Positions 30,331 through 56,200 of a DNA stretch of 64,000 nt are shown here, piece by piece. Positions within the stretch are counted from its first letter, which is position 1. Every line of letters begins with the position of its first letter. The notes under the pieces were generated by a model that saw nothing but the letters and a program-made list of their open reading frames with translations, had not been told where the DNA came from and searched no databases. The position numbers were made by a program, and so were the translations under genes. This stretch comes from [Phialemoniopsis] sp. UDSM-2020 (Eukaryota; Ascomycota; Sordariomycetes; Thyridiales; Thyridiaceae): NCBI GenBank assembly GCA_018873225.1, contig JAEILZ010000008.1, positions 1,860,001-1,924,000 on the forward strand, in the 5' to 3' direction.

Positions 30331-32813
30331 CTTGACTGGCTGATGAACGCGTCTTGTCGGGGTAGTTGCGAGCTTGTGCGGTAAGGTTTAAAAGAGATGT
30401 CGGCAAGAAGAAATCATTGAATGTAAAAAAAGACAATGCCCAAAGGAAAGCTATGTCGATATTTACAATGCTTACTTACGGTTCGGAATATTTGGTCGTT
30501 GGTCGTGGGTGCATGTGGTTGTTCTGGAAGGTGTGAGGTCGAGCTCCAGGTCAGGGTCCCCGGGTCGTAATAAACAGGCGTCGTTGCTCGGCAACCACGC
30601 GACGCCTCTTCACCTTGACAGCTCCACCACCACCACAACCTACCTAGGTAGGTAGCCCGACGTCATCCCCAGTGTTCGCCTTGTCCAGAATTGGACGACG
30701 TCAACAGTAAACAATCTACCAAGATAGACCTGATTTGCATGCAAGGGGAATCATGGCCATTATTGCGGGCTCAAGCATCGCCGCAATTCTGTCGTTCAAG
30801 AGGAGCACATGATGTTTTAGTTGACTCGTACTGTTAAGTGCGCAAGAACATGCAAGTTACCAGTCGTCGTGAAAAGAGGCCTAGGTAGCATCAACTCGAA
30901 CATGCACTAGATTGTGGTCACGTTCTCTGCAAGCCACTGACGATGAGTCGTCAAGGCATGCAGTCCCTTTGAAATGAGATGGGATGATGCCCTTCAAAGC
31001 CTCGAATAGCTTGTTTTCACACCGCCTCGACTGCTTCTGCGCTCTTCAAGTCCAACTCAAAGTAGAATATGAAAAGCGTCGTAAGGGCACCGTCGTCCAC
31101 AGATAGGTAATTTCCGAAATGCTCCAATTCAACTTTCAATCTTATGAACTTCATAGCAGAGTACTTTCTATCCTACGCTACAGATTGCTTATGCACAAGA
31201 CTTAGTGACGACGAACAAGGCTATACGGAGTAAAGATCCCAGATGTAGATTGTTGTCGACTCGTGGGAGTTCCAAATGTCGATTGAATGATTCTCCCACT
31301 ACCTACCTAGTACATAGAAAGTCACCCTTGCTACCTGGAAAGCGACCAAGAAGCTAGAGCTTCTAGATAATAGCCATCCACATGTGCACGTAGGTGGGTG
31401 GCCAATAATTAGTACTCAGGTATCTTAATTGAAAAATAAAGGGATTATATCACCGGTGGTCACTGTGAAGTCTCATATCTCTATAATTCAAGGTGGAGAG
31501 GCAGGTTGCTGCTACCATAGCACACATTATGAAGGTCTTCAAAGTCTTTCGACAAGTGTCGATGAAGCCCTTGCAGATGTTCACATGGATTGGATTGGAT
31601 TGCTGTTTCTCCTGGGAGGTACCCAGGGACCTGTGTTAACCCAAATGGGTTCGATCATGTCTCTCCCCCGCAAAAGCCGATTCGGTCCCGGCGCCTGCAA
31701 AACGTCGGTGTCTGTCTACAGGGGCGCCAGTCCATTCTTAGCACGCCAAGGCAGAGAGAGGTGCCTACCCGTGCTCAGCCTCTTCGGGATCTTGCAGGGC
31801 ACCGCACACTAGCCAGGAACGCCAGGTCACAAACGGGACCAGCTCCCAGCCCGGCTGTCTTTACTGGTCCAAGGCTCGTACGGAACTACACAGCGTGCGA
31901 CAAGTCCGTACGTACGGCTCTGAAGATCATTGATAGGCGTGGATCGTCTTGACCACGTAGTTTTGGTTTCTGCTGCTGCCTCGTCTCATGAAAAGCATCT
32001 CGGTCTCAGATCAGCATCTGACAAGGCTAGGGCAGGCGGCTGCAAGGTAAGCCCCCAATGGATGATGCTGACCCGCTGACCCTGTTCAAGTTTAACTTTC
32101 TCGATCTGCCATCCCCTTGGGAGGCAGCCAGATAAGTTTAATAGGCGCTGGGCTGACTGTTCCATGTGCATCTCGGGATGCTCGGAGCACGCCGAACCAC
32201 CGCCTCCAAACATGCCCCATTTTTGCTGCTCCGCCCGTATTAACGTATTGCGTCACACCCAACCCTTTAACGGACCTCTGATCTTACCGGCTGCATAGTG
32301 TAGGCGATCAGGTAACAAGACAGGCAATTCGTACGAACTAGCCAGCCAGACGACTGCCAGAGTAGGGGACACCGCAGCCGGGCTATGCCTGTCAGCATCC
32401 CTCACTCGCCCAATCCCCATCTGGCGGATTGACCTGTCAAAATCCACCGCAGTTCAACAAGCTCGCATGCGTAGGATTAACGTGGATCAGATTGTCTCGG
32501 CGGTGCCAGCTCAGCTCATGCCTAGTGTCTATTTATCGGGGCCGTCGACTGCCCGCGAAAACAACACCAAAAGCGGGTGGTCCACCCACACACATTGCCC
32601 GACTTTCCATGCATGTGGAATTTGATGTTTGAGGGAGTCAGCTTTATATCAAAACTCAATCTCCCTCTTGTTACTTTTCTCTCACTCTCTTTCGAGACTG
32701 CTGCATAACCTGCCGTTTCTTTGGGTTCTCGGTAACAAGCACCCGGTTGCTTCCCTTACTTTTTGCGCCAAGCAACGGCGCACGCGACACCAGCAATAAA
32801 ATTCACAGACACA
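30331..32813. other. intergenic region, about 2.5 kb
   Basis: Divergent upstream region of the BRCT gene (-) and phospholipase B gene (+). It contains the perfect palindrome TACCTAGGTA at 30641-30650 and related CCTAGG copies near 30880 and 31305. A TTTATAT element near 32643 lies about 170 nt before the phospholipase start. Open frames at 31429-31952 show nothing recognisable. Confidence 0.5.
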
Positions 32814-34784
32814 ATGTTGGCCCAGGTGCTACTGCCTCTCGCCCTCTGTGGCGCCGGACTAGTCGGGGCTACTCCCCTCTCAGACCAGGCATCGTCTTCG
32901 CACCTGCGGGGAGTCGAGGTCATTGGCATACGAGCGCTGCCGAACTCACCTTCCGGCCGGTATGCGCCGGCCGTCGTCGACTGCCCGGCGGAAAAGCCCA
33001 CCATCCGCAGCGCCGCCTCCCTATCAAAGTCGGAGACGGACTGGCTAAGGTTACGGCGCAACGTGACGGTTGATCCCATGATTGACTTGTTGAAGCGGGC
33101 AAATATTCCCGACTTTGACGCCTCGGCTTACATCCGCCAGGTCGCTGGCGATGCATCTAAGCTGCCCAATATTGCCATTGCCGCCTCGGGTGGAGGCTAC
33201 CGGGCGCTGCTGAACGGCGCCGGCTTCATTGCTGCTGCTGACAGCAGGACGCCCGGGTCCCTTGACAAGGGTGGTATCGGCGGCCTGCTGCAGGCCTCAA
33301 CTTATCTTGCCGGTCTGTCCGGTGGTGGCTGGCTTGTTGGCTCCATTTTCTCCAATAACTTCTCTTCTGTCGTCCAGCTACGTGATGGCAGCGCTGGTTC
33401 GAGCATCTGGAAATTTGATAGATCCATCTTCCAGGGCCCGGCACAGAGCAAAGGCTTTTCGATCCTTAACACGGCGAAGTACTGGGGTAATGTGGCTGAC
33501 GCCGTCTCCACCAAGGATGATGCCGGCTATAACGTTTCCATCACGGATTACTGGGGGCGAGCACTGTCGTACCAGCTCATCAACGATACCGACGGTGGCC
33601 CGGCATATACCTTCTCGTCAATTGCTGAAGCGGACAACTTCAAGCAGGGCCAGACACCCTTCCCTATCCTCGTCGCTGATGGCCGTGCCCCTAACACGCA
33701 GATCATTTCGCTGAACTCAACCGTATTCGAGTTCAACGCGTTTGAGATGGGCTCGTGGGACCCGACCACCTTCGGTTTCGCGCCGACCAAATATTTGGCT
33801 TCCAACTTCTCCAATGGCCAGATCCAGGACAACGGCCACTGCGTGGAAGGCTTCGACCAGGCGGGCTACGTGATGGGCACCTCGAGCTCGCTCTTCAACC
33901 AGTTCCTGCTCCAGGACCTCAGCAGCGTCCCCGACGTGCCCAAGTTCGTCCTCGACGCCGTCACCAAGATTTTCACCGACATTGGCGAGGACAGCAACGA
34001 CATCGCCCAGTACCAGCCGAACCCCTTCCTCGAGTACAACCCCTCGACCAACCCCTCGGCCAAGTCGCAGGAGCTCTCCCTCGTCGACGGCGGTGAGGAC
34101 CTACAGAATATCCCCCTGCACCCGCTCATCCAGCCCATGCGTGGCGTCGACGTCATCTTCGCCATCGACAGCTCCGCCGATGTCAACAACTGGCCCAACG
34201 GCACCGCCCTGCGCGCCTCGTACGACCGCGCCAAGGGCGACATCGCCAACGGCACGCTCTTCCCGCCCGTGCCCGACGAGCACACTTTCATTAACAAGGG
34301 ACTCAACAAGCGCCCGACCTTCTTCGGCTGCGACGTTCGCAACTTCACTCTCAAGAGCGGTCAGGTCGCCCCGCCGCTCGTCGTCTACGTGCCCAACGCG
34401 CCGTACACAGCGCAGACCAACGTGACCACTTTCCAGCCTAGCTACCCTGTGGGGCAGAGCAACGACATCATCCGCAATGGCTACGACTCGGCCACGCAGG
34501 GCAATGCCACCGTCAACGCCGACTGGCCCGTCTGCCTGTCGTGCGCGATCCTGAACCGCAGCTTTGGCAAGACCAACACAACTGTGCCAAAGGCTTGTGC
34601 CGACTGCTTCACAAAGTACTGCTGGGACGGTACGCTCGACACCAAAGATAGTGGCCCGTACTATCCCGACTTTATCATCGGCAACTTCACTTCAAAGGAG
34701 AACGCGGCGATGGGTAGGGCGGCTTCCGGATCGGCGTCAATGATGGCCTTGGCCGTGGGTCTCACAATGTTTATGATGCTGTAG
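32814..34784 (+). CDS. secreted, probably GPI-anchored lysophospholipase / phospholipase B
   Basis: An intronless gene of 656 residues, started at the ATG at 32814 because it opens a clear signal peptide ([20 protein letters not shown]). The catalytic core of the cPLA2/PLB family is complete: SGGGYRA (Arg130), GLSGG-GW with nucleophile Ser169, and [16 protein letters not shown] with the catalytic Asp. Many N-glycosylation sequons and a late group of cysteines fit an extracellular protein. The extreme C terminus ([20 protein letters not shown]) is a small-residue site plus hydrophobic tail, typical of GPI attachment. The enzyme removes acyl chains from phospholipids and lysophospholipids at the cell surface or wall. 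Confidence 0.94.
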
Positions 34785-43014: not shown

Positions 43015-43034
43015 GCGGGCTTAGCTCAGTTGGG

Positions 43035-43088
43035 GTATGTTTAATCACAATGTCCAACATGCCTACCAGGCACTAACCCATTCTACAG
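43035..43088 (+). other. spliceosomal-type intron in the tRNA D-loop
   Basis: 54 nt with donor GTATGT, branch-like GCACTAACC 14-22 nt before the end, and acceptor CTACAG. Excision between positions 20 and 21 restores the normal D-arm AGTTGGGA-GAGC exactly. The length is typical of introns in this genome. Confidence 0.7.
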
Positions 43089-43100
43089 AGAGCGTCAGAC

Positions 43101-43155
43101 GTTAGTACCACCCACACCGCACTACCACCACTACCAAAACTAACCCCACATCTAG
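43101..43155 (+). other. spliceosomal-type intron in the tRNA anticodon loop
   Basis: 55 nt with donor GTTAGT, branch-like AACTAACCC and acceptor CTAG; the interior is rich in CAC/ACC. Excision between C32 and T33 restores the canonical loop start CTGAAG. Its 3' part resembles that of the D-loop insert (both have ACTAACCC shortly before the acceptor). Confidence 0.68.
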
Positions 43156-43209
43156 TGAAGTGAACTTCAATCATCATATCTGAAGGCCGTGTGTTCCACA
43201 CAGACCGCA

Positions 43210-43218
43210 TTTTTTTTT
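43210..43218 (+). terminator. RNA polymerase III T-run terminator
   Basis: Nine consecutive T residues begin right after the discriminator base of the tRNA, with further T runs to about 43246. This is the standard Pol III stop signal. Confidence 0.75.
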
Positions 43219-53295: not shown

Positions 53296-56200
53296 ATGTC
53301 ACCCGATGATGCTTCACGCCCGAGAGGCGAACCTGCTGGAAGTCAGCCGACTCAGGTAGCCCCCATGAGCTTGTCAGCATCACAACGAGAACGACAACAG
53401 CGAGCGCCTTCCTTACCACTCGTCACATCCGCCGACTCGACCCATGTTCGACCAAAGAGCCCCATGCCGGCTCATCAGGATGGCGTGCGTTCCCGCATGC
53501 GCGACCGCTTTCTGCGCGAGTCGCCTGCTTTACCACCGACGGCACAGAGGGATCAACCCACGAGTCCGTTCCGCTTACCCATGCCTATGATCAGTCCTGC
53601 GCAGTTGGCCTTCTCAGCCATGCAGTTCTTGCCTGTTCCGCTGCTGGTTTTGAATAGTCTGAAAACGGTTGTACTTGCCAATGAGGCGATGGGACGACTT
53701 TTGGGACTAGTATCGGAGAAAGGGGACGAACAATCAGATGCCACAACCTCGATTTTGGACAGACTGCGCGGTCAATCGCTATCGCAGGTTGGTGTGGACT
53801 TGATCCAGGACGGAAGGCCTGTTTGGGTAACGTGGGAAAACCTCCTGGATTCGCTTGTCATTGAGTTGGGTGCTTCCAAACTAGGAGGCCTGGAGGACGA
53901 TGGCGAGAAAACGCCTCGACCAGACTCTACAAACAGTAAGGCTCAAACATCATCGACCGTCACCCCGAGCACAGTGCTCGACGTGGTGATCACCCGAAAC
54001 GACCTGGGTACGCCTGCGGAATTTCGACCAAAGACAAGAGGTTCCGAATTCCAATCCTACGCGAAGATGCTCATCACCGTTTGGGAGGTCGACGACCAGC
54101 AGACATATTTCACCTTGACCTTCACTCACAGCGACACTTCAGGCCATCAGTCCTTGGCCAAGCCGAAAAAATCGGTAGCTCGATCTAACGTCTTGCAAGC
54201 ATCCGAACGGAAGTCGATACCACACTCAAATTCACCGTCCTTAAGCTCCGGCCAGGGTTCTGTATCACCATCCTACACGATAAGCCCCGGCGCAGTGGCC
54301 GTGTCTTCGAGCCCATTCCCCCCCATGGGACCTCCTGCCAAGTCCGCGTTGTCAAGCACGCCCTCCTTACTCCAGAAAACACTACTCATGAAGGATGCTT
54401 TACTCGACAACACAGAGATGGCTGTCTTCGCCATGTGGAAGGACGGCAGCGTGATGTATCCAAATGCTGCCGCACGGAGGCTTCTCAGAAAGGGCACTAC
54501 TTTCGAGGACTTTCAGAACGGACATGACAGTATTACGAATTGGGAGGTATACGATGAAGACTTCACTAGGATGCTCGAGCCAGAGGAATACCCGATCTCA
54601 GTCTTGTTGCGGACAGAGACACCATTTTCTGGAAGGAGGGTTGGAGTGTACGATCAAAATGGCGAGAAGCGCATTCTTGACATCTTAGGAGAGATCATCC
54701 GGGACGAGAATACTGGGGAGATACTGGCGGGTGTCGTGACTGCTCATGATGTCACCGGTATAACTCAGATGATCACACAAATCAAGGAGGACGACGATGA
54801 GCGATTCGAGCTGATGTGTGAGTCGATGCCACAGTTCGTGTGGACTGCCAACTCGGACGGCAAGGTCGATTTCTTCAACAATCGCTGGTATAACTACACT
54901 GGACTTTCGAAAGAGGCGTCACTCGGCGATGAATGGGTAAGCACGTTTCACCCTGATGATCGTCCAGAAACCTTGGCGAGATGGAACTACTCGTTACGTA
55001 CGGGAGAGCAATACGTGACAGAATATCGGTGTCGAAACAAAGAAGGCGAGTGGAGATGGTTTCTCGGTCGGGCATTGCCTCTGAAAAACAAGGAGACCGG
55101 TGAGGTTGTGAAATGGTTTGGTAAGTCGATCTAGTGAGTGCAAATCGTCATATCCAGGACTAATGTTACGCAGGGACTTGCACTGATGTGCACGAGAACA
55201 TCGAAACGAAGCTGGCAGCGAAAAGATATCGAGAGCAACTCCTCAGCGTCATCGCCCATGCTCATGTCACTATCTTCTCCATCGACATGGAGAGAAAGGT
55301 CACGATGCTTGAAGGTGCTTTGATATGGGATGCAACCGATGAAAACCGAAATTCTGCTGCTCACAACCTGGGCTCCCAGTGGTACATTGGCCAAGGTGTT
55401 GACGAAGTGTTTAACCGCTTGACACCCCAACTCAGACGGGGCGAGCAACCTGGCTTCCTGAAGTCCCTGGATGATGTGCTCGATGGCAAAGTCTCACAGG
55501 ATTTGAAAGAACATTCCATCGGTTGGTCCTTCTATTCGCCTTCTTCGTAGCTCACTGTTAACCTGACTGAACTGATAGACGACCGGTGGTACCGAACCCG
55601 CTTCCTACCAATATATGGCAAGGATAAAAATACGGGGCCTGTCCCCGCCATCGAAGGGGTTATTGGTGTTATCATGGATGTCACGGAACTGAGAAACAAG
55701 GAGGCAGATCTTGTGGTGCAAGAAAGAGAGAAACGACAAGCCATGGCCAGCGAAGCAGCCGCCAAGGAAGCAAGTCGCTTGAAGAGCCAGTTCCTGGCGA
55801 ATGTTGGTAGCCCCTCGACCATATTCCGTGATTAGTGCTGACCTTGTCCAATAGATGTCTCACGAGATTCGAACGCCCATTACTGGCGTGATAGGTATGG
55901 CGGAGCTTCTTCTCGACATGGAACTTGGCCAAGAGCAGCGCGACTTCTCGGAGAACATTTATCGATCGGGGAACGCGCTTCTGACCGTCATCAATGACAT
56001 TCTGGACTTTTCCAAGGTGGAATCTGGGCGACTTGACATTGAGGAAGTTCAATTCTCGCTCCCAGTCATCATTCGCGACGTAAACAAAATGCTGAGCTTT
56101 GCGGCTGAGCGCAAAAACCTGGATTTCCAAGGGTTGATGGCGCCTGAGCTTGCTAGTGACCTTGTTTTATTGGGGGATCCAGGCAGGGTCAGACAGATCA

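Follow-up and report, generated by a model that had tools for sequence, protein, structure and literature searches.

Which splicing machinery would be needed to mature a tRNA gene that carries mRNA-type introns is the question raised by a tRNA-Phe gene at positions 43015-43209 of the window, i.e., of the whole 64,000-nt stretch of DNA that was analysed. The gene carries two inserts of the form GT...CTAAC...AG in addition to one intron at position 37/38. In teaching, tRNA splicing and mRNA splicing are kept apart as two machineries, each with substrates of its own. The locus was followed through the window and the genome for its structure, its relatives, the class of its inserts, and the state of its copies.

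Structure of the tRNA-Phe gene in the window

The layout of the locus (L001) is given in Table 1. With both inserts taken out, the 5' half, the D arm, the anticodon stem-loop (GAA), and the acceptor strands are those of tRNA-Phe, and the A box lies within exon 1. The inserts read GTATGT...GGCACTAACCC...CTACAG (intron 1) and GTTAGT...AACTAACCC...TCTAG (intron 2). Their coordinates, ends, and branch-like motifs had been given exactly to the base in the original prediction, and the window sequence also bears out its claims that removal of both inserts restores the D arm and anticodon loop of tRNA-Phe and that neither lies at the endonuclease site 37/38, which holds an intron of its own. A pattern composed of exon 1, the start of intron 1, and CTAAC matched once in the window versus zero matches in 100 dinucleotide shuffles. 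The raw window yielded nothing from Rfam at gathering scores and nothing from ARAGORN. The protein of another gene in the window (32763-34784) has its closest match in the sordariomycete Thyridium curvatum (86% identical).

Table 1. Positions of the parts of the window tRNA-Phe gene, of a protein-gene intron in the window, and of tRNA loci elsewhere in the genome (C, contig)
Feature	Position	Strand	Details and evidence
Exon 1 of tRNA-Phe	43015..43034	+	5' acceptor strand, 5' strand of D stem, most of D loop; sequence
mRNA-type intron 1, 54 nt, D loop	43035..43088	+	GTATGT...CACTAAC...ACAG; site shared with L002 and L003
Exon 2 of tRNA-Phe, 12 nt	43089..43100	+	End of D arm, 5' anticodon stem; sequence, alignment
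mRNA-type intron 2, 55 nt, at 32/33	43101..43155	+	GTTAGT...AACTAAC...CTAG; site shared with L002 and L003
T33, anticodon GAA, base 37 (five bases)	43156..43160	+	Sequence
Ordinary tRNA intron at 37/38, 17 nt	43161..43177	+	Sequence; 17 nt in L002 and L003 too
3' exon of tRNA-Phe	43178..43209	+	Four T-loop bases missing in the alignment with L002 and L003
Nine-T run, Pol III-type terminator	43210..43218	+	Sequence
Intron of a protein gene (two-component sensor kinase, named by eye), 53 nt	55121..55173	+	GTAAGT...GACTAAT...CAG; motif scan
L002, tRNA-Phe	C1:1203784-1204001		Both inserts at the same two sites, intact T loop
L003, tRNA-Phe	C4:4992723-4992946		Both inserts at the same two sites, intact T loop
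L120, tRNA-Cys	C11:402980-403444		Sole GC-AG intron of the set, GCAAGT...AACTAACC...TAG
L143, tRNA-Trp copy	C9:475722-476190		Uninterrupted, decayed
L148, elongator tRNA-Met	C11:577690-578020		Damaged, with an inverted 5' fragment adjoining
L149, tRNA-Pro (AGG)	C8:2737440-2737900		Damaged copies as an inverted pair with related flanks

The copy in the window is probably a pseudogene or damaged paralogue. In alignment its T loop has four bases fewer than those of L002 and L003, and TTC at 43194-43196 runs straight into the 3' T-stem strand, so that the B box is broken. ARAGORN reported no tRNA in L001 even with both introns removed in silico, and found tRNA-Phe in L002 and L003. The original prediction, which mentioned neither the shortened T loop nor a mismatch of G5 and A68 in the acceptor stem, had built its case on this one odd gene; the two-intron structure is real, but the copy that displays it is probably dead because of the T-loop deletion.

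Other tRNA-Phe copies

The genome amounts to 44.18 Mb in 11 contigs, one of which (28.9 kb) has dense tRNA clusters and was on that ground taken to be mitochondrial. A check for other tRNA-Phe copies had been proposed together with the prediction, and a DNA search of the genome with the window gene gave four places; both inserts are present in the window copy, L002, and L003 and absent from L004. Exon 1 of the window copy aligned with both L002 and L003, each of which has an A box, a B box, and a T run. Between these two copies, 87 of 90 pre-tRNA columns are equal and all three differences lie inside the 37/38 intron, so that the mature sequences are identical. The mRNA-type introns agree in 34 of 57 (0.60) and 29 of 55 columns (0.53), with a mean identity of 0.457 and a maximum of 0.552 among 300 shuffled intron pairs, and both intron ends and the CTAAC element are among the columns in common. 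Upstream of the genes, 28 of 65 flank columns are equal.

At anticodon-stem pair 28-42, L001 has C-G where L002 and L003 both have T-A; two bases have changed and the pairing is kept. In the acceptor stem of L002 and L003, six of seven bases are paired; the G5/A68 mismatch was seen by eye in L001 and L004 too, i.e., all Phe copies have one. L004 has an altered D stem, GAG at the place of the anticodon, and one extra T-loop base (by eye), and was accepted by ARAGORN as tRNA-Leu(GAG) and rejected by the strict structure scanner. Judged by sequence, L002 and L003 are likely the working Phe genes, and the functional case rests on them, since L001 is probably a dead paralogue. For introner-like introns, recently multiplied as near-identical copies, the look covered the Phe introns: the 231-base query of the Phe search matched Phe loci only. 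The Phe exon-intron pattern had zero matches in viral contigs and genome contigs, collections not known to include any fungi, so that the result is silent on relatives.

Interrupted tRNA genes across the genome

The tRNA gene of the original prediction is not alone in this genome: two more Phe copies have both mRNA-type introns, and altogether 23 interrupted nuclear tRNA genes with 27 introns were found on seven contigs. The 20 genes besides the three Phe copies were drawn from RF00005 matches with long inserts and from places with a B box and T run. Intron removal in silico yielded a tRNA according to ARAGORN in 22 of the 23 genes, L001 being the sole exception, and the strict structure scanner accepted 21, rejecting L001 and L128 (the latter for a 31/39 mismatch, by eye). 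Spliced L131 was named Met by ARAGORN and read as Leu-CAA by the scanner.

Introns in the D loop or at its end, as Phe intron 1, occur in both Lys-CTT genes, Gly-CCC (L105), Gly-TCC, Arg-CCT, Leu-CAG, Leu-CAA, Glu-CTC, and Trp. The remaining sites are 25/26 (Arg-CCG), 26/27 (Pro-AGG, L135), 31/32 (Cys), 32/33, as Phe intron 2 (elongator Met, L126), 33/34 (initiator Met), 34/35 inside the anticodon (Gln-CTG, Ser-GCT, and, by eye, elongator Met L128), and the variable region (Gly-CCC, L098, and three Pro-AGG genes). Ordinary 37/38 introns were located by the scanner in 16 of the 23 genes and by eye in L001 and L128. In pairs of paralogues, the mRNA-type introns diverge outside the splice signals while the exons stay conserved: 74/74 pre-tRNA versus 45/58 mRNA-type intron columns are equal in the Lys-CTT pair, and 90/90 versus 41/56 in the Pro-AGG pair. 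At L014, two initiator tRNA-Met genes are separated by about 280 bases; one has an intron at 33/34 and the other is uninterrupted.

Two further loci with intron-like inserts were left out of the count as damaged, namely L094 (Leu-CAA), where the insert ends in TGG and not in AG (by eye), and L148, which has T-arm substitutions (by eye). Another 58 nuclear loci were accepted by the scanner without such an intron; both this list and that of the 23 genes are incomplete. The RF00005 search of the genome, in which 63 of 930 first-look candidates were scored, missed six Gly-GCC and three Glu-CTC genes that were found by B-box patterns, and absence from it was thus not used as evidence. Anchoring on the B box is blind to introns within the T arm or acceptor strands, and a CGTTC pattern gave 14 matches, none of which resembled a tRNA gene as judged from the match list. 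The tRNA census recognised no nuclear gene for Tyr-GTA, Glu-TTC, or Ala-CGC and is hence incomplete. L115, L117, L096, L121, L124, L104, and L141 are tRNA-like or have a B box and were not counted as interrupted (L117 is included both in the 58 uninterrupted loci and in the 29 ordinary introns used below); by eye, L113 and L146 look like Ile-TAT genes with ordinary introns.

When run on the unspliced genes, ARAGORN reported nothing for L001-L003 and named the initiator Met gene 'Tyr' and the Gln and Ser genes 'Thr'. Standard tRNA finders can thus miss or misname such genes, and similar cases may go unnoticed in other genomes.

Class of the introns

The 27 introns comprise 26 GT-AG and one GC-AG intron of 48-66 nt, and all of them have G at intron position 5 and a YTRAY branch site whose A precedes the 3' end by 10-15 nt. 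Since they were chosen partly by these splice marks, controls matter. The stronger one is the comparison with 29 ordinary 37/38 introns of the same genome (8-54 nt, one site), among which GT/GC-AG ends within a 3-base slide were found in one, a branch site in one, and both in none. Another was a motif-blind deletion scan of 65 B-box places, which used tRNA structure only and tried deletions singly. It found one or more workable deletions at 27 of the 65 places. Counted by locus, GT..AG was the commonest boundary pair (18 of 27, including the tRNA-His locus L049, which was not counted as interrupted), followed by TA..AG (15); counted by single solutions, it fell outside the top 15 pairs, as adjacent deletions are often just as workable. 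As only one deletion was handled per pass, the Phe genes and L135 were unsolved (one solution for L135, without GT-AG); L128 and L094 had no GT-AG solution. The scan gives weak support to a spliceosomal class. GC-AG solutions in L054 and L121 were judged spurious.

As a yardstick, a single intron of a protein gene in the window (Table 1) has the same make-up as the inserts in the tRNA genes; its removal leaves the frame open for about 125 codons further. Group I and group II introns were rejected as a class for the inserts, which are too short at their lengths, and Rfam at gathering score was empty in the window.

Based on their ends, G5, branch sites, lengths, the restoration of the cloverleaf, and the conservation of exons and splice signals, the inserts are very probably spliceosomal (U2-type) introns in working nuclear tRNA genes, which would be removed before the tRNA endonuclease acts. 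Points against this reading are the apparently dead window copy, the acceptor-stem mismatch of all Phe copies, the rejection of L128 and L001 by the strict scanner, the two different names given to spliced L131, and the uninterrupted state of U6, which is likewise a Pol III RNA.

Intact copies and alternative explanations

Twelve in-silico spliced sequences of ten tRNA kinds were used in one search of the genome (42 matches). For Lys-CTT, Arg-CCT, Gly-TCC, and Gly-CCC, split copies only were found. The search returned three split copies and L004 for Phe, three split places (among them the damaged L148) and a lone inverted 5' fragment for elongator Met, and, for Pro-AGG, two unsplit copies (L149, with T loops one and two bases short) beside three split ones. 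Trp is represented by L144 (split) and L143 (unsplit, D stem no longer pairing, by eye), Leu-CAA by L131 (split), L150 (unsplit, ending inside the T arm), and L094, and Arg-CCG by L111 (split) and the 3' relic L151. ARAGORN found no tRNA in L143, L149, L150, or L151. Within this genome search, an incomplete census, no intact uninterrupted copy was found for any of the ten kinds, Phe and elongator Met included. L143 and L004 suggest that intron-free copies exist as relics.

That the interrupted loci are dead pseudogenes which happen to hold introns, with the cell using other, uninterrupted genes, is an improbable reading, even though several observations point its way: L001 lacks four T-loop bases, L148 has its T-arm substitutions, L094 lacks the 3' AG, the uninterrupted Phe-like L004 passes ARAGORN as a tRNA, and intact uninterrupted copies also exist for initiator Met, Gln-CTG, Glu-CTC, Cys, Leu-CAG, and Ser-GCT. 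Yet the uninterrupted copies found for the ten queried kinds are damaged (L004, L143, L149, L150, L151), 22 of the 23 genes are recognisable once their introns are removed, and L002 and L003 have kept an identical mature sequence despite diverged introns and flanks. The strongest argument that spliced products are made comes from tRNA-Phe and elongator tRNA-Met, which have no substitute decoder.

Far less likely still is that the inserts are ectopic tRNA-endonuclease introns of the kind known from a red alga, with coincidental GT-AG ends. The ordinary 37/38 introns in the same genes show that the endonuclease pathway operates, but a complete central helix of the bulge-helix-bulge motif was found in only 1 of the 27 introns, against 0.56 expected from jittered boundaries, so that this class was rejected as not above chance, and the combination of GT/GC-AG ends and branch site separates all 27 from every one of the 29 ordinary introns. 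An assembly artefact or chance resemblance is scarcely credible: the damaged window copy speaks for it and nothing beyond, whereas the introns occur at 23 separate loci on seven contigs and differ from each other, and the aligned Phe, Pro, and elongator Met copies have unrelated flanks.

Decoding by Phe, elongator Met, Trp, Lys-CTT, Pro-AGG, Leu-CAA, Arg-CCT, Arg-CCG, Gly-TCC, and Gly-CCC tRNAs probably runs only via spliceosome-dependent genes, which would couple tRNA supply and translation to pre-mRNA splicing, with the spliceosome acting before the endonuclease. The intact nuclear copies found for these ten kinds each have one or two introns, some of them between anticodon bases.

In several extra tRNA copies the damage falls on the same few bases of the T loop, with small indels in L001, L004, and the two L149 copies, and substitutions in L148 and L151; L150 ends in the T arm. 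Ascertainment accounts for part of this cluster, as the spliced-query search brings up copies that had escaped the B-box patterns, but the damage could be a trace of some agent cutting or inserting within the B box.

Proposed order of processing

Transcription of the interrupted genes would be by Pol III, with the A and B boxes as internal promoters. By eye, most genes with a D-loop intron either have the whole A box upstream of that intron or have it completed by the G with which the intron's GT starts (Glu-CTC L129 is an exception), and none of the introns found lies in the B box, where anchoring on that box could not find any. A kept A box and an intron-free B box suit transcription from internal Pol III promoters; apart from L002 and L003, most of the other genes were found by their B box and T run, and the presence of boxes and terminators is partly selection. 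The spliceosome would then remove the mRNA-type introns first, in the nucleus, since introns from 31/32 to 34/35 disrupt the anticodon stem-loop by which the endonuclease recognises its substrate, after which endonuclease and ligase would take out the 37/38 intron where present. A need, if the gene is functional, for both the spliceosome and the tRNA endonuclease/ligase had been part of the original prediction and is supported by the occurrence of mRNA-type introns off 37/38 beside the normal tRNA intron.

If this is true, the spliceosome can routinely process Pol III pre-tRNAs and two splicing machineries are needed in series. With hosts such as the Phe genes, with their 12-nt internal exon, and the Gln, Ser, and elongator Met genes, with introns inside the anticodon, the genome would offer a natural system for intron gain in noncoding RNAs, for the recognition of very small exons, and for a possible tuning of tRNA supply by splicing.

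Relation to known systems

In fission yeast, the gene for U6 snRNA, a noncoding RNA made by Pol III, has an mRNA-type (spliceosomal) intron (PMC10484740). Here, by contrast, there are many tRNA hosts, with up to two such introns in addition to the tRNA intron, and three full-length U6 matches in the genome mean that its own U6 is uninterrupted. The 18S rDNA of ascomycetes hosts short spliceosomal introns (PMC11889510), which are alike in being short, spliceosomal, located in structural RNA genes, and from the same phylum, but sit in a Pol I-transcribed rRNA host and not in tRNA genes.

Ectopic and multiple tRNA introns have been described for Cyanidioschyzon merolae, the Guillardia nucleomorph, and Archaea, and are ascribed to the tRNA endonuclease and bulge-helix-bulge motifs (PMC3978253, PMC8450103), although many of the Guillardia nucleomorph introns have no defined motif. 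Common to those cases and to the present one are D-loop and other unusual sites and several introns per gene; what differs is that the bulge-helix-bulge motif is not above chance here and spliceosomal signals are present instead. According to the tRNAscan-SE 2.0 paper (PMC8450103), a eukaryotic tRNA gene has at most one intron. Ordinary eukaryotic 37/38 introns occur here alongside mRNA-type ones in the same genes and, unlike these, do not combine GT/GC-AG ends with a branch site in any of the 29 compared. A 2026 review ascribes tRNA splicing to enzymes other than the spliceosome (PMC13149111). The remark in the original prediction that such a tRNA had not been seen described agrees with a search of titles and abstracts in a partial literature collection without preprints, which turned up no description of spliceosomal introns in tRNA genes; we found no precedent for this known intron class in this class of host RNA.

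Other tRNA-like sequences

A repeated element of about 115 nt, not recognisable as a tRNA but marked by a tRNA-like B box and a T run, was encountered in at least six places (L097, L101, L106, L112, L114, L123). L096 and L117, which have no clear anticodon arm, are related; in both, the acceptor strands pair, the D arm reads TGGTGTAA...GG, and a B box is present.
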